Below are positions 32,700 to 43,503 of a stretch of 64,000 nt of DNA, one piece after another. Each line of letters begins with the position of its first letter. Position 1 is the stretch's first letter. The notes below the pieces were generated by a model, which was given only the letters and a program-made list of their open reading frames with translations, was not told the DNA's origin and made no database searches. This stretch comes from Peredibacter starrii (GTDB lineage Bacteria; Bdellovibrionota; Bacteriovoracia; Bacteriovoracales; Bacteriovoracaceae). The position numbers were made by a program, and so were the translations under genes. The DNA lies in NCBI RefSeq assembly GCF_034259205.1, contig NZ_CP139487.1:2728001-2792000 (forward strand). The letters are read 5' to 3'.

Positions 32700-35600
32700 A
32701 TGGATGTTAGATTTCTCATTTTAACCTTATTTTTCCTGGTTTCGTGTATGCCAGAGCCCACTGTGGGCCGAGGCAATATCGCGGGATCTGAAACGACTGG
32801 TGGCTCAACCAGTGGTTCAGGCGGTGGTACAACCGCTCCTATCACTACGAAGTGGAATTATCTCGGATCAGTTACAACTTCAATTACCATCAACGTTTCA
32901 AACTTAAACAATGCCTACTTGGTTGGTACGCCAGTTGAATCATATCTGTCCACGACTGAGAATTTCTCAAACGCGAACTACTGTCTTGTGACTAGCTACA
33001 CCCTTGGTGGAGTTCCCCTAGAGCTTCGCTCAAGAGCGGTGCCGATCTCGTATTATGACTTCAATGAAAAGCGCACGGTTCGTGTTCTTCGTGTGGATTT
33101 CCAGGACGTCACAAACTCTTCAACATTTTGTAACGGCACTCTTCGCATAAAAGACAGTAACGGCGACTATATGGTGGATTCATCAACACCATCTGGTTAC
33201 AAGTATGATCCGAATCTTCTTTGTCCTACTTGTACCAGCATGTTGATTGCAAGCAAGGTAAGACTTTTCCAGAGAGGAACTTCTTATCTGGATGAAGTTC
33301 CTACAAACTTAATTACCACTTCTCCATTGGGCATGCAGGTCGATCCAAACTACGCAGCTGGCGGAGGCGCCGGCACTTGTTCAAATGCAGACTGTCAGGC
33401 GCGCGGCTATAACTGCTGTCTTGATAATCAATGTGTGAACGATGGAGCAACGAGACCATCGGCCTCAATTCAATATCCTTCTCTTTTGCAAACTGCAGAG
33501 GCGGAGAGACTACAAAATCCTCTGGCCTACTTAAACTACCCTCAACTTTATTACATCTGTGGAACTTACGTTCCGCCAACATCGACAACTGGTAGTACAA
33601 CTAGCGGTAGTAATGGTGGTTATGATGAGGCCTTCGCAAAACTAAAAAAAGACTATCGTTGTGTTGAGCACATTAAGGCACAGGCAACGACTTCTCCTTT
33701 TCATAATGAACTTCTGTCTCGCTCATACACAGGCACGACAGATTGTCTGACCAGTTCAAGTGACTCTTCTCAGGAAATGTACTTCCAGAGTGTGATTAAA
33801 CGACTTTATACAACTTGTGGATGTTCAAAAACTGAACTTTCAGACATGATCACAAGCTGTCCGGCCTATGAATACCAGGTCGTGACAACTGATACATTGG
33901 GTGAGCCGACAAGTATTGATTGTTATACTCCTCCAACATCGACTCCAACTGTTCCCCCAACGCAAACTGTTTCACTTAACTCGCGTTCAGCTCCTCACCG
34001 TTTCTTTGATACAACTGGTGCCGAGAAAGTTCCGACTGCTTCAAGCACTTTCACTCAAGAAGGTGATGCATTTGAATATTTGGATGAAGGAAAAGTTCTT
34101 CCTAATCAACAAAACTTCAGTATGAATGCAATCCTGGGTCCTATGAGTGTGTTACTCGATAAGACTCTTCCGGCAAAAACCGTGACTGTAGAACTGGATC
34201 AGGTTTACTTTATCTCAACCACATCTGGTTACTACACTCCATGTCCGACTTGCGCCAAGGACTCTTGGTTAAGCTCATTTACTGCATATCCTACAACTGG
34301 GTATGGTGTGGGTCTTCAGGCCGTGGGTCACACGACTGAACGTGATGCTTTCTCGACAAATACGACTGGTGGAAACTATGAGGACACGATCTTTGGTCGT
34401 GCTTGTTGGCTACCTCCTACGATGATTCCTTTTTCTCATTCGGCAAAATCAACTTCAAAAGATCAGCGTCTGAACCGTCTTCAAACTCAGGCGGCCCTTT
34501 TCATTAACGGTTATCAGCGTGACTGGTACGGCTTTAATAAAGGTGCCCTCATTGGTTCTTTCGATGGCGTAACTTGGTTTGCGATTGGTAAAGGTCGTAT
34601 TGTTAAATCGACTTCTAAGAAACTCTTCCTGGCGATTAATGCTCCATTCGCTGATGTGGCCTCTCCAACGATTCACCAAGTGGGCATTTATGCTTACGAC
34701 GGAATTACTCAAGCGGCCCAAGTGGACTATGATCCTCAATATCACCAGTCTCATCCTTATCAGAACGAAGCAGGTAACTGTCAGAAGTATCACATGTGTG
34801 AAACTGACACTGATTGCGTGACTAAACTTGGTTGGGAATATGCTTGTGCAGATATTCGTGATGTGAAAACGAACTGGCCAAGTTTCAGTGCTGACGCTTT
34901 GGAAGTGGCGGCCTCATCTACATCAACTTCAATTGATCAAATTCTTCAACAGAAGCGCCTTCCTTCTTCGACAAGTAAACGTTGTGTTTACCGTGGAGCT
35001 GGTGCTCTTTGTTTAGTGAATTCTGGTTCACTTCCAGCTTCAGATCTTAATAAAAGAAAGATTATGACGTGTGCGCCGAACTTCTACTGCGCTAACGTTA
35101 GTTCTTCTGGAGTCTTTAACTCGAAAGTGGCCCGTTATGCGGCACCACTGGCCGATATTCCAGTTGCCCGTAACCACCTCTTTGGTAAAGACGCCAACGT
35201 GCTTGGTCGTCCTCTTTCATATGTTGCTTCAGGAGACACGACTTCACTACCAAGTGCCGTTCGTTCAACTCTGATTGAAAATATGGTGGCAATGGATGCT
35301 CAAGGCTCAGCTAATACGGGTCTTTGTCAGCCAGGTAAATTACTTCCAACTGCTGCAACTCAAGCGACTTACGGAAATCCTTTCAACCAACATCTGGCCG
35401 CGGACTCTTCTCGTAGAGCAGACTTTATTAGCCAGATTGGTAGCTGTAACTCAACACTCTTCACGTCATACCGTCACTCATCATGTCCAGTCATTGGTTC
35501 AGATGGTAACTATGAACTATTCGCGAATGGAACTCTGGCGGCTGGTTACAATGCTCGCGCCACAAACCAAAACGCTTGTGGACTTGAGTCTTTGGCATCA

Positions 35601-37730
35601 ACTGCGAACCTAAGTCTCTCGGCGGATGACCTTCTTCCATACTCTCCATTTAGAAATATCGAAGCGAAGCCCCTTAACTCTCAGATCATTACTGATCAGA
35701 CGATGGTAAGAGACGCTTGTTTAAGACGTGCTGGGGCCGTTTGTCACACAGATCTGGATTGTACGCCAAACAAGATGCACGCCTCACAAGTGGATTACTT
35801 TGTAACAAACTTCTTTGGTAACGCTGCTGAGAAGAGCTACTACACAGAATACCTGGTGTGCGGACAAATGGATCCAAAACCAGTTGCTTCAAATACTGAG
35901 GCCTTTAAAAACTACGATATGTCGAAGAACCGTTGTTGCCGTGAAATCGGAAGCGACCTCACGACTTATACCGCCGACGTTCCGACCGCCACTCAGGGCG
36001 GAGCTTACAACGCCAACTCTGCTGGTCTTAAAATGTCTCTGCAACCTGGTCTTACTCCTAACGATACAAAACGCTACTCTCGTTTAGCGACAGTGGAAAA
36101 TCTTGGAACTGCAGATCGTCCGATTCTTTCTGCTTACCAGGATCGAAACGCTTCTGGTTACGTCTTAAATAGCGCCGAAGGTGCAAGTGTCATGACTTCG
36201 AAACAATGGCGCACACTGGGTGAAGCAAACTCAGAAAGCTGCTGTGGCGGTGGATGGATCAGAAAATTCTCTGACGGATCAAATGATTGGTCTCGCCGTG
36301 ATCGCGTTTATATGGACGTTACAAACTTCCGTTGTATCAACGCTAGAACGCCACTTCTTACTTCTCCAACCGATCTCGCAACTGAATATAACAATGCTTC
36401 AGACGTAACTGCTCTGGTTGGCCAGGACTATGGTGATTACTGTAAAGATCCAACCAACGTTAAAGGTCAATGTGCTCAAGTTTCGATCACAGACTCTACG
36501 GCCGATACAGCACCGGTTTACGATTCATCAAACCAATATACAACTGTAACGGTAAATACCATCACAACTACCGGGACTAAGGACTTCTACTTTGCTCCAA
36601 GAAGTGCTGATGGTGATGCTTCAGTAATCATTGATTACGGTAATAGTTCTGGTCGCAGAAACATCGTGATCAAAGTTCCAAGTTATATTCCACGCTCTTT
36701 CGATGCGGCCTATGCGGCAACTGCTGATGGTGGCGTACCAGGCACCGCCCTTTATCGCATCTATATGGTGAACTCAAGTGGTGGTACAACTCTTTGTGTA
36801 AAAAACCATGCTATGTCGATTACAAGTCCAACTCAAGTTTATGGTGGTGCAGGTTGTGCTTACACATACAACACTACTTCGCGCGTGTTAAAACTTGGTT
36901 CATCAGGCGGCGCAGGCAAATGGGGTCTTCAATTTGACTCTGCCGTTGCAGGATATGCCTCAGCTCTTTCAAGAACTCGTCCAGCAACAAGCGGTTATTA
37001 CCTACGTCGTCTTGGCCGTCTTGAATTAAGTGGTATTCCTCAAATTCCAATTGAACCACTTTACTGTAATGATAACTCGAATAAATTGGTTCCAGGAGTT
37101 CTTAAGTCGAACATCGCTACTAAGACCGCGTTCGATTCAAATTCGATCTCATTCCTTTATGGCGGAGATGCTGTGGCCACTCGTCGCACGAACTTCACTG
37201 CCCTTCAGGACGAACCAGTGTTCTCGCAAAACGATTTCAAATGCTGTACTCCACTTGGTAAAACAGTGAGTAACACCAATAAATGTTGTTCAGGCTTTGG
37301 AGTGTCACAAGGTGAATCAGGCACAGCGTTTACTTGTGCCCTTCCGCCAGGTGCTAACCTTATGGTGTACTTCAACCGTTTCGTTTCAAACGAAGGCCGT
37401 GGCACAGAACAACCTGGTGGCGGACTTGTTGATGCTGACTTCGCAGATCAAACTGGTGAACCACTTCTTAGCGCATCAGTGAATGATAAAATACGTGAGC
37501 TAGGAATTGCCTACTGTTCAACTGGAAGAGTTCGTCAGGGCGGCGCCTTCGGTTCATTTGAACCAGAACCACAAGGATCGGAAACAAACCTTTCTCAAAA
37601 GATCTATAATATTGTAGATTCATCCAACGACAGCGGTCAGAATTCCAATGCTGGTAAGACTGTTACAACTGGATATGCTCCGTTCACAGATGGATTCAGA
37701 TGGAACCATCACCTCTATTGTGACGACTAG
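32700..37730 (+). CDS. Giant Cys-rich outer lipoprotein of unknown function
   Basis: 1676 aa. Signal peptide with lipobox FLVSC (Cys16), then a Gly/Ser/Thr linker (about residues 24-48). The rest is a long, Ser/Thr/Asn/Tyr-rich extracytoplasmic chain with dozens of cysteines, many paired (YNCCLDNQC, NRCCRE, ESCCGGGW, FKCCTP), suggesting a disulfide-braced surface protein. I do not recognise any family. An in-frame stop lies two codons upstream, so the ATG at 32700 is fixed as the first possible start. The thioesterase gene follows after 6 nt, an odd partner. A surface or predation role is inference only. Confidence 0.88.
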   Translation: MDVRFLILTLFFLVSCMPEPTVGRGNIAGSETTGGSTSGSGGGTTAPITTKWNYLGSVTTSITINVSNLNNAYLVGTPVESYLSTTENFSNANYCLVTSYTLGGVPLELRSRAVPISYYDFNEKRTVRVLRVDFQDVTNSSTFCNGTLRIKDSNGDYMVDSSTPSGYKYDPNLLCPTCTSMLIASKVRLFQRGTSYLDEVPTNLITTSPLGMQVDPNYAAGGGAGTCSNADCQARGYNCCLDNQCVNDGATRPSASIQYPSLLQTAEAERLQNPLAYLNYPQLYYICGTYVPPTSTTGSTTSGSNGGYDEAFAKLKKDYRCVEHIKAQATTSPFHNELLSRSYTGTTDCLTSSSDSSQEMYFQSVIKRLYTTCGCSKTELSDMITSCPAYEYQVVTTDTLGEPTSIDCYTPPTSTPTVPPTQTVSLNSRSAPHRFFDTTGAEKVPTASSTFTQEGDAFEYLDEGKVLPNQQNFSMNAILGPMSVLLDKTLPAKTVTVELDQVYFISTTSGYYTPCPTCAKDSWLSSFTAYPTTGYGVGLQAVGHTTERDAFSTNTTGGNYEDTIFGRACWLPPTMIPFSHSAKSTSKDQRLNRLQTQAALFINGYQRDWYGFNKGALIGSFDGVTWFAIGKGRIVKSTSKKLFLAINAPFADVASPTIHQVGIYAYDGITQAAQVDYDPQYHQSHPYQNEAGNCQKYHMCETDTDCVTKLGWEYACADIRDVKTNWPSFSADALEVAASSTSTSIDQILQQKRLPSSTSKRCVYRGAGALCLVNSGSLPASDLNKRKIMTCAPNFYCANVSSSGVFNSKVARYAAPLADIPVARNHLFGKDANVLGRPLSYVASGDTTSLPSAVRSTLIENMVAMDAQGSANTGLCQPGKLLPTAATQATYGNPFNQHLAADSSRRADFISQIGSCNSTLFTSYRHSSCPVIGSDGNYELFANGTLAAGYNARATNQNACGLESLASTANLSLSADDLLPYSPFRNIEAKPLNSQIITDQTMVRDACLRRAGAVCHTDLDCTPNKMHASQVDYFVTNFFGNAAEKSYYTEYLVCGQMDPKPVASNTEAFKNYDMSKNRCCREIGSDLTTYTADVPTATQGGAYNANSAGLKMSLQPGLTPNDTKRYSRLATVENLGTADRPILSAYQDRNASGYVLNSAEGASVMTSKQWRTLGEANSESCCGGGWIRKFSDGSNDWSRRDRVYMDVTNFRCINARTPLLTSPTDLATEYNNASDVTALVGQDYGDYCKDPTNVKGQCAQVSITDSTADTAPVYDSSNQYTTVTVNTITTTGTKDFYFAPRSADGDASVIIDYGNSSGRRNIVIKVPSYIPRSFDAAYAATADGGVPGTALYRIYMVNSSGGTTLCVKNHAMSITSPTQVYGGAGCAYTYNTTSRVLKLGSSGGAGKWGLQFDSAVAGYASALSRTRPATSGYYLRRLGRLELSGIPQIPIEPLYCNDNSNKLVPGVLKSNIATKTAFDSNSISFLYGGDAVATRRTNFTALQDEPVFSQNDFKCCTPLGKTVSNTNKCCSGFGVSQGESGTAFTCALPPGANLMVYFNRFVSNEGRGTEQPGGGLVDADFADQTGEPLLSASVNDKIRELGIAYCSTGRVRQGGAFGSFEPEPQGSETNLSQKIYNIVDSSNDSGQNSNAGKTVTTGYAPFTDGFRWNHHLYCDD

Positions 37731-38284: not shown

Positions 38285-41200
38285 TTAGTATTTAATGCAG
38301 TAAAGTAGTGCTTTGTTTCGAGGACGGGTTTCAGTTCCACCCGAAGCATTCACAGTTACTGTGTGAGTGTGAGCGCCTGTAGTACTTGTTGTGAATGTGT
38401 GAGCGTGATCTCCTGCCCCGTTCATTCCAACTGAGTGAGAGTGGTTACCAGCACCGTCAGTCCCTTGGTTTGTACTTCTAAAACCATTATTTCCAGGAGC
38501 ATTATCAGTTCCTAGAATGGCATCAGTTGACCAATCGTTAGTTGTAAGAACACTACTGTCCCATGGAAAGAGAGCATTGATGGAGTGTCCGTGATGACCA
38601 TCGGTTGAGGTCCATGCGCCGTGAGTATGGTTACCGTTAGTGCTGGTTGTTCCTGTGTGAGCGTGGTCTCCTGCAGATGCAGAAGAGCCTGTGTGGTTAT
38701 GGGATTTATAATCGTCGGCCTGCGCACTCGCAATCGCTCGCCCAGTATCCACACCTCGACCATCGTCCCAACCTCTCACAAACTCACCACGAAGGTCAGG
38801 AAGGTTAAAGGTTGTAGATCCGTCCCCAGCTCCCCAAGTCGTTCCAACGGCCGCAAATAGGCCCGCATAAGTCGTTCTGGATACCGCCGCTCCATTGGCC
38901 TTGATCCAGCCAGATGGGCAAGTGCTCATGGCATATGTTGCCACTTGTCCCGCAGGAGTAGAAGAACCCATGGTGACCCATGATACTCCATCACATCCTT
39001 CAAAGTTACCACCCACAAATCTCATAGTTCCTTGTTTTGAAGCATTACACGTTCCCGAATCGTTACCGATTTTTACACCACCCTCTACTTCAAGTTTTGC
39101 AGCGGGAGCAGCAGTTGCACCAATCGCCACATCACCGTCATGAGTGATGGTCACGCGCTTTCCTTTCTGAGATAAATCGTCATTAGTCGCCATGACTGTT
39201 AATTGGTTACCTGTAGTTCCATTAACGTTCATGATTTGGAAATTCTTTTTATTGGCCGGTGCCGGAGATGCCGTGGCATTCATTTCTACCACCGCAGTTG
39301 AAGCTCCATTCACCGAACGAGCACTATCAATCCGAACGTAGGCCTGACTATCAGTTGAATCAACGACATGAAGTTCAGCGGCCGGTGTTGCAGTTCCAAC
39401 ACCTACGTCACCTAAATTGTAATAGATGTCACTTCCCGTAGTGATCCATTGAGTTGCCTTTGAATCGACGTAAGTTTTTGTGGCCGCATCTGTGCCAGCA
39501 GTTGGAGTTCCAAGGCCCGTGATCTTTTGGTTACCCATGGCAAGAGGTCCACTCATCGTGTCACCGGTCTTCGCCACAAAACCAGTTTGATTCCCAGTCA
39601 GTTTGCCGATCGCTTGAAGAACTGTATCAGTCGCAGAAACAACTCCAGCAGTTGTTGAAAGCCCAGTTAATGGAGCTGCTCTTACTCTGGCATCGGTATA
39701 ATAAAGATTTGTGACCTCAGGAACTACAGATGTATTGAGAGTCTGCCAGGTTTTATCCCCTCTCCAATACTGAGCGGTCGTTCCGGCAGTGATTGAATTT
39801 TCTTTTGCCGTAAATGAGGCCGCGAGCCCACTAATTTTTGACTGAGAAATCGCCGCACCGGCCGCAATATCATCATCGACAATAGTACCATCAGCAATTT
39901 TCGCTGAAGTCACCGCACTGTTAATAATGGTCGCACTCGACATCGTGCCCGACAGATCTCCACCAACTGCACTTGCACCAGTGGCCACAGTCGCCCATGA
40001 TAAGTTTCCTGAACCATCTGTAATAAGAGCTTGTCCCGACGAACCAGAAGTCCCCGGTAAACTCATTGAGAGATCACTCGCAAGCGAGGCAGGAGCACGA
40101 AGAGTGATGTATTTCGTATTATCTGATTTCAAACGAAGTAAAGTCTGAACATCAACTTTCCCAGAACCCGTAATCGAAAGATTTTTAATGTTATTTACAA
40201 AGAAATCCATCTGCTGGGTCGTAGGATCCCCGGAGTGAACATAATACTTAATCGCCCCGGAAGAAATCGTCGCCGTATCACCAAAATAAACTGAGGCCGT
40301 ATTACTATTTGAAGTAAAAAGATTGATCGCAACCGGACCCACTTCTCTATCAAATGAAGCAACAGCATCTGCAGTTGGAGAATTCGGTGTTCCGAAATCC
40401 GGTTTCACAACCACCTTACCATTCACATGAAGTTTCTGAACTGGATTGGTAGCACCAATTCCAACATTACCCGCGTTGCTGTTATAGATATTTGAACCTG
40501 AGACCGTCCAAGAATTCGCCCCACTAATGGCCGTATCAACATAGTTTTTAGTAGCAGCATCCGTCATCGCCGAAGGCATAGCAAGATTAGTGATCTTGTT
40601 TGTTCCCATATCAATATTGCCACTCATCGTTCCACCGGCCAGTGGAAGTTTTGAGTTATCAACAGAGACATCGGGAACACAAGCAAACGTGACAGTTGGC
40701 CCGGCCGTGAGAGTCAGTTTATCTGTGCCCATACAAGGCGTGAGATCACTTACCAGCGCTTGATTCCAAGCCAGTCCTGGTGTGAGACTTGAAAGAGCAT
40801 TTAATCCTAAGTTGGTTCTGGCATCGGCCGCATTGTTTGCACCGGTACCACCTTGAGTGAGCCCAAGGAACGCCAACTCACTCATGACTCCTGAACCATT
40901 GTTTGCCAATACATAGTTAGGCGTACCACTGGCGAGTTTTGAACGAGAAATATTTCCGGCAAGATGTGAATCCGTCACACCACTATTGCTAATGGCGATG
41001 GTTCCTGAATTTGTGATTGTTCCACCTGAGAGCCCTGAACCAGCGGTGATATCTGTGACTGTTCCTCCAGTCGCACCGACGATCGGTTTGGGCTCCCATT
41101 TTGATCCGGTCCAAGTCAGAACTTCATTATTGTTTGCATTTAATTTTGAAAGACCATGAGCAACTTGGGCCGAAGGAACTGCATGGAGTTCCTGAAACGA

Positions 41201-41533
41201 ATAGGCCTTGCTCGCAGTTAAATTCGTCACTCTAATCGCAGGTGAACTTGGAGTTGTGATTGAGGCCAATACCTGTGAGAGCGTTGGAGTGCCACAATCC
41301 AAATCCAGCTTCACATGAAACACACCATTTGTGAGAGCAACGTTGTTGATGTCTTGGTTACAAAGAACAACTGAGGTATCGGCCGTGCTCGCGAGATCAA
41401 AGCGTAGGTTTACCGGGCCCACTATCGGCGAGCCGTTAGTGTTCACAAGTCTTCCGGAATAACTTAACGATTCAGCATTCGCTGCTGACAATAAGCTGAT
41501 GACTGTTAGTAGTCCCACCAAAGAAAACTTCAT
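38285..41533 (-). CDS. Secreted phage-tail-fibre-like protein with tail-collar and His-x-His needle tip (MAT-like)
   Basis: 1082 aa. Signal peptide (1-20), a conserved N-terminal domain (21-125), a Gly/Ser/Thr/Asn-rich repetitive shaft with fibre repeats (TDAATKNYVD about 324-333, TDAATKTYVD about 681-690, GNVGIG and DVGVG turns), then a phage tail-collar domain (about 861-925) and a His-rich tip. The tip has seven H-x-H motifs at 945, 957, 969, 981, 1031, 1043 and 1055, as in T4 long-tail-fibre needles where such motifs bind iron in a trimer. The architecture resembles the MAT fibres of Bdellovibrio. GGGG precedes the ATG. It lies downstream of a paralogue with a different tip. Confidence 0.9.
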   Translation of the reverse strand: MKFSLVGLLTVISLLSAANAESLSYSGRLVNTNGSPIVGPVNLRFDLASTADTSVVLCNQDINNVALTNGVFHVKLDLDCGTPTLSQVLASITTPSSPAIRVTNLTASKAYSFQELHAVPSAQVAHGLSKLNANNNEVLTWTGSKWEPKPIVGATGGTVTDITAGSGLSGGTITNSGTIAISNSGVTDSHLAGNISRSKLASGTPNYVLANNGSGVMSELAFLGLTQGGTGANNAADARTNLGLNALSSLTPGLAWNQALVSDLTPCMGTDKLTLTAGPTVTFACVPDVSVDNSKLPLAGGTMSGNIDMGTNKITNLAMPSAMTDAATKNYVDTAISGANSWTVSGSNIYNSNAGNVGIGATNPVQKLHVNGKVVVKPDFGTPNSPTADAVASFDREVGPVAINLFTSNSNTASVYFGDTATISSGAIKYYVHSGDPTTQQMDFFVNNIKNLSITGSGKVDVQTLLRLKSDNTKYITLRAPASLASDLSMSLPGTSGSSGQALITDGSGNLSWATVATGASAVGGDLSGTMSSATIINSAVTSAKIADGTIVDDDIAAGAAISQSKISGLAASFTAKENSITAGTTAQYWRGDKTWQTLNTSVVPEVTNLYYTDARVRAAPLTGLSTTAGVVSATDTVLQAIGKLTGNQTGFVAKTGDTMSGPLAMGNQKITGLGTPTAGTDAATKTYVDSKATQWITTGSDIYYNLGDVGVGTATPAAELHVVDSTDSQAYVRIDSARSVNGASTAVVEMNATASPAPANKKNFQIMNVNGTTGNQLTVMATNDDLSQKGKRVTITHDGDVAIGATAAPAAKLEVEGGVKIGNDSGTCNASKQGTMRFVGGNFEGCDGVSWVTMGSSTPAGQVATYAMSTCPSGWIKANGAAVSRTTYAGLFAAVGTTWGAGDGSTTFNLPDLRGEFVRGWDDGRGVDTGRAIASAQADDYKSHNHTGSSASAGDHAHTGTTSTNGNHTHGAWTSTDGHHGHSINALFPWDSSVLTTNDWSTDAILGTDNAPGNNGFRSTNQGTDGAGNHSHSVGMNGAGDHAHTFTTSTTGAHTHTVTVNASGGTETRPRNKALLYCIKY

Positions 41534-41661: not shown

Positions 41662-43503
41662 TTATTCCAATCGGTAAAATTTGATGGTGCCTCCAGCATT
41701 ATTGATGCTGATATTTCCATTGGTATGATTTGGCCCAGTCATAAAACTTACGGCCGCATTTCCTCCGGCGATTCCTAAAACAGATTTGTAGCGAGTGACT
41801 GAACCACTAGCAACGTTCACAGTTGGGGCCATATGTCCTAAGAAACCACCGGCCGGTCCGAAACCAAGCTGAACATTTCCCGCACCAGTTGCTGTGATCG
41901 TAACATCAACTTCGATTAAGTATTGACCTGAAGCTGGCGGAGTAAACGTAACACTTCCTGAGATCGCACTTTTTAGAGCAGCATTTCCATAAGCACCATA
42001 TGAGTGAACAGTAGAAACCGTATTAGGAGTGGCAGGTGGTGCCGAGGCCCAGCCGTTCATATCAATCACCACGAATGCACCCACAGCGGCCGTCGTTTGT
42101 GTTGTTCCATCTGGAAATCTGAATCCACCACTACTTGATTCAATAGTTCCTGCGACTGAAAGTTTATAGCTTGGAGAAGTATTTCCGATACCGACGTTTC
42201 CTGAAACGCCACTATAGATATTGCTACCACTCGTGACCCACTTCCCATCGACATAAGATTTTGTGGCGGCATCAGTTGTGGCAGTCGGAGTTCCAAGATT
42301 AGTAATCTTGTTGTTGCCCATATTGATCGCACCGGTCATGGTTCCACCGGACTTCAAAAGGAAATTTGCAACATTACCAACAAGTTTTCCAATCGCGGTC
42401 AACAAGGAGTCAGACGAAGTCACTGTTCCAGCAGTCGTATCCAATCCTGTTAAAGTTGTTCCCCTCACCGCTGCATCCAGTGGTTGCAGAGAGTGATCAC
42501 CTCTAAAATACTGATCCGATGTTCCCACCGGAATAGCATTCTGTTTATTCGCCAGATCAGTTGTTAAATTTGCAATCTTCGATTGAGCAATGGCGGCCCC
42601 GCTCGCCACATCAGCATCAACTATCGAGCCATTTTCAACTGCATCTTCACAAGACCAATTCATTGGCCCTAAGTTCATATGAAGTTTTTGAGATGGTAAA
42701 CAGTTAGGTACATCACCTGAGAGCACAGTTCCTGCACCTACTCCAATATTGGCCGTCGCACTGGATCCCAGACCTAGATTTGTTCTTGCCCCGGCCGCAG
42801 TGTTAGAACCCGTACCACCACTCGACAGAGGAAGCTGGGCCACTTCAGTGAGAGCACCTGATCCATCATTCATAATGACGTAATTTGGAGTTCCACTCGC
42901 AAGTTTCGCTCTAAGAATGCCGTTTGCGAGATGAGTGTTTGTCACTCCTGCTGTATCAATCGAAATTGTTCCGGAATTTGTGATTGTTCCACCTGACAAA
43001 CCCGATCCGGCCGAAATGTCAGTGACTGTCCCACCAGTTGCACCAACAATTGGTTTTGGTTCCCACTTAGAACCGGTCCATGTGAGAACTTCATTATTAT
43101 TTGCATTTAGCTTTGAAAGATTATGAGCAAACTTGGCCGACGGAACCGAGTGAATAGATTGAAAGGAATAGACCTTACTCCCATTTGTCACTCTTATCGC
43201 AAGTGAATCACCGGATGGAATTTCATACAACACTTCTTCAAAAGTTTTTCCCGAGCGAACAGAACAATCAAAATCCAACGAAACATGAAATACACCATTG
43301 GTGAGTGAGACTCCCGAAACCGTATCATCACACTTAATTGAACTTGTGGAGTTAGTGTAGGCCAATTCAAAGAAGAGTGTAACCGGGCCCGCTACCGGCG
43401 AACCATCAGCGTTCACCAAACGACCTGAATAGCTGAGAGTTTCCGCGGTTGCAGAAAAGGACAGACAGCCAGCAAGGAGACAGATCAGTTTCTTGTGTGC
43501 CAT
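41662..43503 (-). CDS. Secreted phage-tail-fibre-like protein with C1q/TNF-like tip (MAT-like paralogue)
   Basis: 613 aa paralogue of the next gene downstream. The first 245 residues match it closely; residues 127-182 differ at only 3 of 56 positions. A shorter shaft follows (fibre repeat TDAATKSYVD about 410-418, FRFPDGTTQTTA at 461-472), then a compact all-beta tip (about 475-613) with the strand pattern of C1q/TNF jelly rolls (TFTPPASGQYLIEVDVTI near 519-536). The N-terminus could be a signal peptide (cut near 20) or a lipobox LLAGC with Cys13. GAGG lies 7 nt before the ATG. It probably trimerises and binds a target different from its neighbour. Confidence 0.88.
   Translation of the reverse strand: MAHKKLICLLAGCLSFSATAETLSYSGRLVNADGSPVAGPVTLFFELAYTNSTSSIKCDDTVSGVSLTNGVFHVSLDFDCSVRSGKTFEEVLYEIPSGDSLAIRVTNGSKVYSFQSIHSVPSAKFAHNLSKLNANNNEVLTWTGSKWEPKPIVGATGGTVTDISAGSGLSGGTITNSGTISIDTAGVTNTHLANGILRAKLASGTPNYVIMNDGSGALTEVAQLPLSSGGTGSNTAAGARTNLGLGSSATANIGVGAGTVLSGDVPNCLPSQKLHMNLGPMNWSCEDAVENGSIVDADVASGAAIAQSKIANLTTDLANKQNAIPVGTSDQYFRGDHSLQPLDAAVRGTTLTGLDTTAGTVTSSDSLLTAIGKLVGNVANFLLKSGGTMTGAINMGNNKITNLGTPTATTDAATKSYVDGKWVTSGSNIYSGVSGNVGIGNTSPSYKLSVAGTIESSSGGFRFPDGTTQTTAAVGAFVVIDMNGWASAPPATPNTVSTVHSYGAYGNAALKSAISGSVTFTPPASGQYLIEVDVTITATGAGNVQLGFGPAGGFLGHMAPTVNVASGSVTRYKSVLGIAGGNAAVSFMTGPNHTNGNISINNAGGTIKFYRLE

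Follow-up and report, generated by a model that had tools for sequence, protein, structure and literature searches.

A gp37-type needle tip on a MAT-type fibre of Peredibacter starrii, and an n/(n-1) rule for the histidine motifs of its two arms

We analysed a window of 64,000 nucleotides from the Peredibacter starrii genome (NZ_CP139487.1, positions 2,728,001 to 2,792,000), in which a minus-strand open reading frame with an ATG start encodes a protein of 1082 residues. Its parts, and the second fibre gene beside it, are listed in Table 1. The N-terminus reads by eye as a Sec-type signal peptide, and a pattern search of the stalk found three NVGIG..P...L-like motifs, at residues 356, 709 and 801. 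Elsewhere in the window, a plus-strand Cys-rich ORF of 1676 residues (32700-37730) has a lipoprotein-like start (FFLVSC); no family of Pfam, PHROG or NCBIfam matched it at the thresholds applied.

Table 1. Features of the fibre locus, in window coordinates
Feature	Coordinates	Strand	Basis
Whole gene: MAT-type secreted fibre (putative) with gp37-like tip	38285..41533	-	ORF; N-terminal domain at 12 loci; Collar domain; 2xgf match
Residues 1-150: signal peptide (by eye) and conserved MAT-type N-terminal domain	41084..41533	-	own-genome matches; 16-row alignment; NF053851
Residues 151-859: stalk	38957..41083	-	pattern search; parts matched by PHROG tail fibre families
Residues 860-944: collar domain (gp37 D10-like), base of needle	38702..38956	-	PF07484 and AlphaFold2
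Residues 945-983: outgoing arm, HxH at 945, 957, 969, 981	38585..38701	-	12-residue modules kept in relatives
Residues 984-1030: head insert, proposed receptor-binding loop	38444..38584	-	position of gp37 tip residues after H931
Residues 1031-1057: returning arm, HxH at 1031, 1043, 1055	38363..38443	-	motif count; n-1 pattern in relatives
Residues 1058-1082: return strand, C-terminal collar closing, TETRPRNKALLYCIKY	38288..38362	-	aligned to 2xgf C-terminus
Neighbour gene: second MAT-type fibre, 613 aa, same N-terminal domain, no needle	41662..43503	-	

The seven HxH motifs that a sequence-only reading of this DNA had placed in a 12-residue register were all recovered from the translation and occur nowhere else in the protein. 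They run from window positions 38693-38701 (residue 945) to 38363-38371 (residue 1055), in steps of 12, 12, 12, then 50, then 12 and 12. When residues 860-1082 were shuffled with their His-rich composition kept, seven HxH arose in none of 20,000 shuffles (maximum six), with no register required. Five motifs, split 3+2, are present in the tip of the closest relative (genome G018, taken as Bacteriovoracaceae bacterium UBA6200, phylum Bdellovibrionota), where both the register of 12 and the gap of 50 residues are kept. The motif block is thus real, but it belongs to a homologous tip of greater extent, which starts with the Collar domain at residue 862. The most similar modules in the tip sit on opposite arms (38630-38665, residues 957-968, and 38372-38407, residues 1043-1054; 69% identity in DNA and 75% in protein), which may be a trace of copying between arms, one route to coupled gain.

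The whole tip was related to the receptor-binding tip of T4 gp37 (PDB 2xgf) by several comparisons. Residues 855-1081 matched it by phmmer (E 1.4e-15), a profile of 36 tips matched it at E 1.9e-12, and the PF07484 Collar domain was found at residues 862-919 (E 5.6e-22). In the 2xgf match the C-terminal TETRPRNKALLYCIKY aligns with the C-terminus of gp37, which in T4 is reported to belong to the collar D10 (residues 811-881 and 1010-1026; PMC6957217). The hallmarks of a gp37-type tip found here are homology across collar, needle and C-terminus, a collar at the base, and HxH motifs split 4+3 around the gap of 50. A single-chain AlphaFold2 model of the tip (36 rows) had a mean pLDDT of 66.8 and a pTM of 0.43; it was confident in the collar (pLDDT >90 across the first 50 residues of the tip) and weak in the needle and the head (block pLDDT 54-61 and 39-47), so we infer the axial meeting of the histidines from sequence only. 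Foldseek with this model placed 2xgf second (E 2.2e-5), and VIA-align gave 2xgf a Z of 8.3 over 84 aligned residues, below 8kec (Z 10.0), 1ocy and 5iv5; we read these fold matches as resting mainly on the collar. VIA-align also gave 9nxk (Z 5.6) and 6ov6 (Z 4.3), neither of which was recovered by phmmer with two other tips. The comparison with gp37-type needles made in the sequence-only reading was borne out, the tip being a true sequence relative of the T4 needle by phmmer, profile, Foldseek and VIA-align.

That reading had also taken the tip to sit on a cellular protein, and the evidence from the N-terminus agrees with it. The first 150 residues match 12 loci of the own genome, the protein itself included, with 47-84% identity to the 11 others, and the open frames at these 12 loci encode 621-1457 residues. 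The family NF053851 (Bdello_MAT_N) matched the whole protein at E 2e-4 and residues 1-175 at E 3.1e-6; the scores of 21-27 bits lie below the curated cut-off of 60, so we call the protein MAT-type and make no formal assignment to the family. The same family matched all 16 aligned N-termini (11 from the own genome and 5 from G018). The stalks of paralogues match PDB 8ond (named bd2133), 8ol4 and 8oml, of which we take 8ol4 and 8oml to be MAT entries; the 1082-residue protein itself had no such match.

The genome carries one shared N-terminus with exchanged C-terminal tips: a needle in one fibre, none in its neighbour, and in others an S74 chaperone domain, which ends six of the seven paralogues scanned. 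The 1082-residue protein holds the only PF07484 domain of the genome. In G018 there are four PF07484 domains, each within a fibre ORF with a match to the N-terminal domain; beyond the collar the sequences differ among them. These four collar-bearing MAT-type fibres lie on G018 contig C2 (L054, L055 and L056) and adjoin other MAT-type ORFs. One further MAT-type paralogue of the own genome (L051:2871-6005, plus strand) resembles a collar at its C-terminus, ETRPRNVAVLYCRKN. It carries one HxH, was not matched by the Pfam Collar family, and is possibly a decayed or shortened collar tip.

The matches of the tip and of parts of the stalk to phage tail fibre families (PHROGs), and the occurrence of such tips in hundreds of phage records (642 of 50,697 by tblastn, next to 380 of 72,556 plasmid records), would suit a tail fibre of a chromosomal prophage or tailocin rather than a cellular surface fibre, a reading to which we attach scarcely any weight. 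The gene has the putative signal peptide and shares its N-terminal domain with 11 other fibre loci, and a PHROG scan of eight neighbourhood proteins gave tail-family matches in the two fibres only. Ten further proteins of the window were scanned with NCBIfam at E 1e-10; nine matched, none to a phage family (SurE, Ffh, BamB, RibBA etc.), and one had no match. The tail sheath family PF04984 was found in neither the own genome nor G018, whereas 3 of 14 control genomes match it, and the fibre chaperone family Tfa (PF02413) was likewise found in neither of the two. Prophage or tailocin origin is disfavoured by the lack of phage assembly genes among the neighbours scanned and by the missing sheath family. 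With no Tfa family, no sheath family and no phage genes among the scanned neighbours beyond the two fibres, the 1082-residue protein is a gp37-type tip used outside a virion, and not a phage tail fibre.

A full needle is rare in the lineage: 5 of 129 family genomes match the tip at E 1e-8, and a full needle (three or more HxH in a two-arm array) was found in two of the 129, in the 1082-residue protein and in G018. The simplest history would be that the tip was captured from a phage. Two other kinds of tip were also noted. A second collar-tip class has HxH every 9 residues and no motifs on a returning arm (L040:3393-4058, L048:694-1443 and L222:2502-3299), with a DPGHxH-like repeat in L040 and L048. 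A tip from a Winogradskyella MAG (L129:4001-4774) is split 4+3 with every step 17, not 12, in both arms.

To compare the two arms among relatives, each HxH array was split at its largest gap, of 30 or more, with the outgoing arm before the gap and the returning arm after it. HxH before tip position 75 were excluded, and of overlapping HxHxH the later one was counted. Tips sampled by similarity to that of the 1082-residue protein gave 194 distinct sequences and 164 below 80% identity to each other; of these, 54 were set aside for carrying at most one HxH and 22 for lacking a gap of 30, which left 88 scorable tips. The returning arm had one motif less than the outgoing arm in 77 of the 88, against a mean of 24.2 and a maximum of 43 when the arms were re-paired at random in 20,000 trials. 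The tips that follow this rule are split 2+1 (24), 3+2 (22), 4+3 (25), 5+4 (4) and 6+5 (2). The eleven exceptions are 4+2 (three), 3+1, 5+1 and 1+1 (two each), 3+3 and 6+2; in four exceptions the distance from the last motif to the C-terminus is 38-43 residues, not 27, and the 3+3 tip has a gap of 53. In these five a motif may have been lost while the strand was kept.

The number seven has no special standing in these data. The sequence-only reading had set the seven motifs beside the seven irons reported for the T4 gp37 tip (PMC6957217, PMC11705849), but the agreement is a coincidence: the 88 scorable tips carry 2 to 11 motifs, and T4 has 3+4 vs 4+3 here. We thus rejected seven as a special motif number.

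Within arms, 226 of 295 steps are 12, and all steps are 12 in 64 of the 88 tips, of which 61 follow the rule vs 16 of the 24 others. Steps other than 12 tend to deviate in both arms, for example 17/17 or 14/14. In the all-12 tips two distances usually stay the same at any motif count: 85-86 residues from the start of the collar to the first motif, and 27 from the last motif to the C-terminus (the latter distance holds in 63 of all 88 relatives). This suggests that layers are inserted in the middle.

Changes in the count were followed on a midpoint-rooted tree of 111 tips, built from the collar and the last 24 residues only (about 110 residues each, with the needle left out), for which branch counts are rough. 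Among nearest disjoint pairs, 21 of 55 differ in count, and 18 of these 21 change both arms equally; the 1082-residue protein (4+3) and its G018 relative (3+2) form one such coupled pair. Parsimony gave 36 count changes, 29 of them coupled, five in the outgoing arm only and two unequal. A second sample, drawn by the collar only, held 77 distinct tips (one of 80, at a contig end, was dropped), 38 of them identical to tips of the first survey, and was reduced to 64 representatives. Most of these are needle-less: 34 carried at most one HxH, 14 lacked a gap of 30, and 16 were scorable. The rule was followed by 10 of the 16, by 10 of the 12 with at least two outgoing motifs, and by one of the three that are unlike the first survey.

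A simple geometry would account for the rule. In a column where sites of the two arms alternate and an outgoing site stands at both ends, the arms must carry n and n-1 motifs; the n/(n-1) pattern is what motifs of two arms alternating on one trimer axis predict. For the T4 needle, contacts between chains are reported for G921-F970 and G964-H929 (PMC6957217), and by simple arithmetic these two contacts would imply that facing residues of the antiparallel arms sum to about 1892. With outgoing sites written D and returning sites U, the T4 column would then read D U D U U U D from tip to collar, beginning and ending with D. The ends of the T4 column (3+4) fit, and its count deviates because three returning sites would fall within the 32-residue step between the first two outgoing motifs. 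With the head offset of T4 assumed, the order in the 1082-residue protein would be D U D U D U D, at a spacing of five to seven residues. The coupled gain and loss of motifs in the two arms, seen by comparing relatives, is independent, if indirect, evidence that HxH pairs come together on the axis of the trimer.

We consider it likely that the gene encodes a secreted, trimeric MAT-type fibre on the cell surface, whose gp37-type tip is a metal-filled needle holding out a receptor head. The data show the homology of the tip, the register of its motifs, the MAT-type setting and the coupled n/(n-1) change of the arms; we infer export, surface display, the trimer, the filling of the sites and the identity of the metal, and the receptor role. 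The N-terminal domain would anchor the exported trimer on the cell, and the stalk would end in the collar, from which a thin needle would project. Each chain would run out from the collar, turn through a head of ~47 residues at the far end, and come back to close the collar. The outgoing (n=4) and returning (n-1=3) HxH would interleave on the three-fold axis at a spacing of about six residues, so that each layer could offer six histidines, two per chain, to one metal ion, with seven sites in line. By the precedent of the R1 and R2 pyocin fibres the metal would most likely be Fe(II). The metals may pin the arms in register, stiffen the needle and hold the head out, and the head may touch the surface of another bacterium, probably prey, by analogy with T4 and in a lineage with many predators.

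Several parts of this picture could be otherwise. The fold may be right and the needle still not an iron needle, with zinc, nickel or manganese in the sites, or with sites left largely empty after export; we regard this as unlikely, though worth serious weight. The putative signal peptide would put metal loading outside the cytoplasm, and zinc was reported at the same motif in the crystal structure of T4 gp12, which had however been refolded with zinc, while the R1 and R2 pyocin fibres and gp37 hold iron there (PMC6116203). Empty sites fit poorly with the ten aligned His positions that are invariant in the 36-row tip alignment and with the strict register in two bacterial proteins. A part for the histidines is also indicated by T4, in which changing H929 or H931, both motif residues, to alanine is reported to abolish plaques (PMC6957217). 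This, with the 29 coupled changes among 36 and the span of the rule from 2+1 to 6+5 and to a tip with steps of 17, makes it highly improbable that the HxH are a low-complexity His/Gly/Thr repeat with no metal role and that n/(n-1) reflects shared ancestry of the sampled tips, even though the tips of the first survey were chosen by similarity and the collar-only sample added three new scorable tips, one of them rule-following.

The role of the head can be weighed in the same way. The insert, proposed earlier as a receptor-binding head, matches the gp37 stretch in which mutation is reported to identify residues that bind LPS and OmpC (PMC6957217), which by analogy suggests a receptor-binding role; the inter-arm gap also varies from 33 to 67 residues among the 88 relatives. 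Both speak against a needle tip that is a spacer or mechanical part, with recognition left to another surface or fibre. Such a role was suggested by the authors who reported a highly conserved gp37-like tip in one phage genus (PMC11990801), and the heads of the 1082-residue protein and its G018 relative are rather alike, but we find it improbable here. As a wider proposal, on which we are evenly divided, gp37-type needles may be a coded ruler: a 12-residue module in each arm would stand for each pair of layers, so that length and the number of metals (2n-1) could change only in matched pairs, and Bdellovibrionota would have mounted such a needle on their own surface fibres, with the reach of a predator's probe tunable in evolution without loss of the fold.

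The n/(n-1) rule can be read from sequence alone, and for many phage fibres it yields a prediction of how many metals the needle holds and how long it is. The 4+3 and 3+2 close relatives, one module apart per arm, form a natural pair for the matched-module coding of length and metal count, and if the metals are loaded outside the cytoplasm with no Tfa-type helper, the fibre would show how needles assemble without one. In the main texts of open papers, covered mostly by search listing, we found no report of the rule or of any MAT fibre that ends in a gp37-type tip. As far as found, the rule and the combination of gp37-type tip and MAT fibre are new, and gp37-like tips and the swapping of MAT tips are known.

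Among known systems, T4 gp37 is like the tip described here in its C-terminus that closes the collar, its HxH on outgoing and returning arms, its head at the turn and its match over the whole tip sequence. It differs in its 3+4 split and uneven steps (32, 14 / 14, 9, 9) from the 4+3 and the constant 12 found here. It is also a virion part that is reported to need gp38 and gp57A (PMC6957217), whereas the present protein is bacterial, with a putative signal peptide and no Tfa-family gene in its genome. Burkholderia phage E094 gp23 likewise carries seven HXH at a gp37-like C-terminus, but is a virion protein with a Tfa-like chaperone, gp24, reported downstream (PMC8174754). The fibre of Burkholderia phage KL3 is split 4+3 with steps of 12, as here, and an Alteromonas phage is reported to have a gp37-like tip with six HxH (PMC11705849). 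The solved R1 and R2 pyocin fibres share the HxH of three chains, which form an octahedral six-His Fe(II) site, and differ in that a single iron site lies in the shaft and a lectin domain at the end (PMC6116203).

On the cellular side, the MAT superfamily of Bdellovibrio bacteriovorus (Bd2133, Bd1334, Bd3182 and others) resembles the present fibres in the length of ~1000 residues and the exchanged tips, with S74 and non-S74 members together in one genome, and probably also in the signal peptide and the conserved N-terminal domain. A word search of the main text of PMC10769870 gave no occurrence of "gp37", "HxH", "collar", "iron", "histidine" or "metal". The MAT tips described there include a beta-helix with S74, beta-sandwiches, and TNF-like and C-type lectin folds, whereas the tip here is a gp37-type needle, with which a phage receptor-binding needle would join the known tip set of Bdellovibrio-type fibres.
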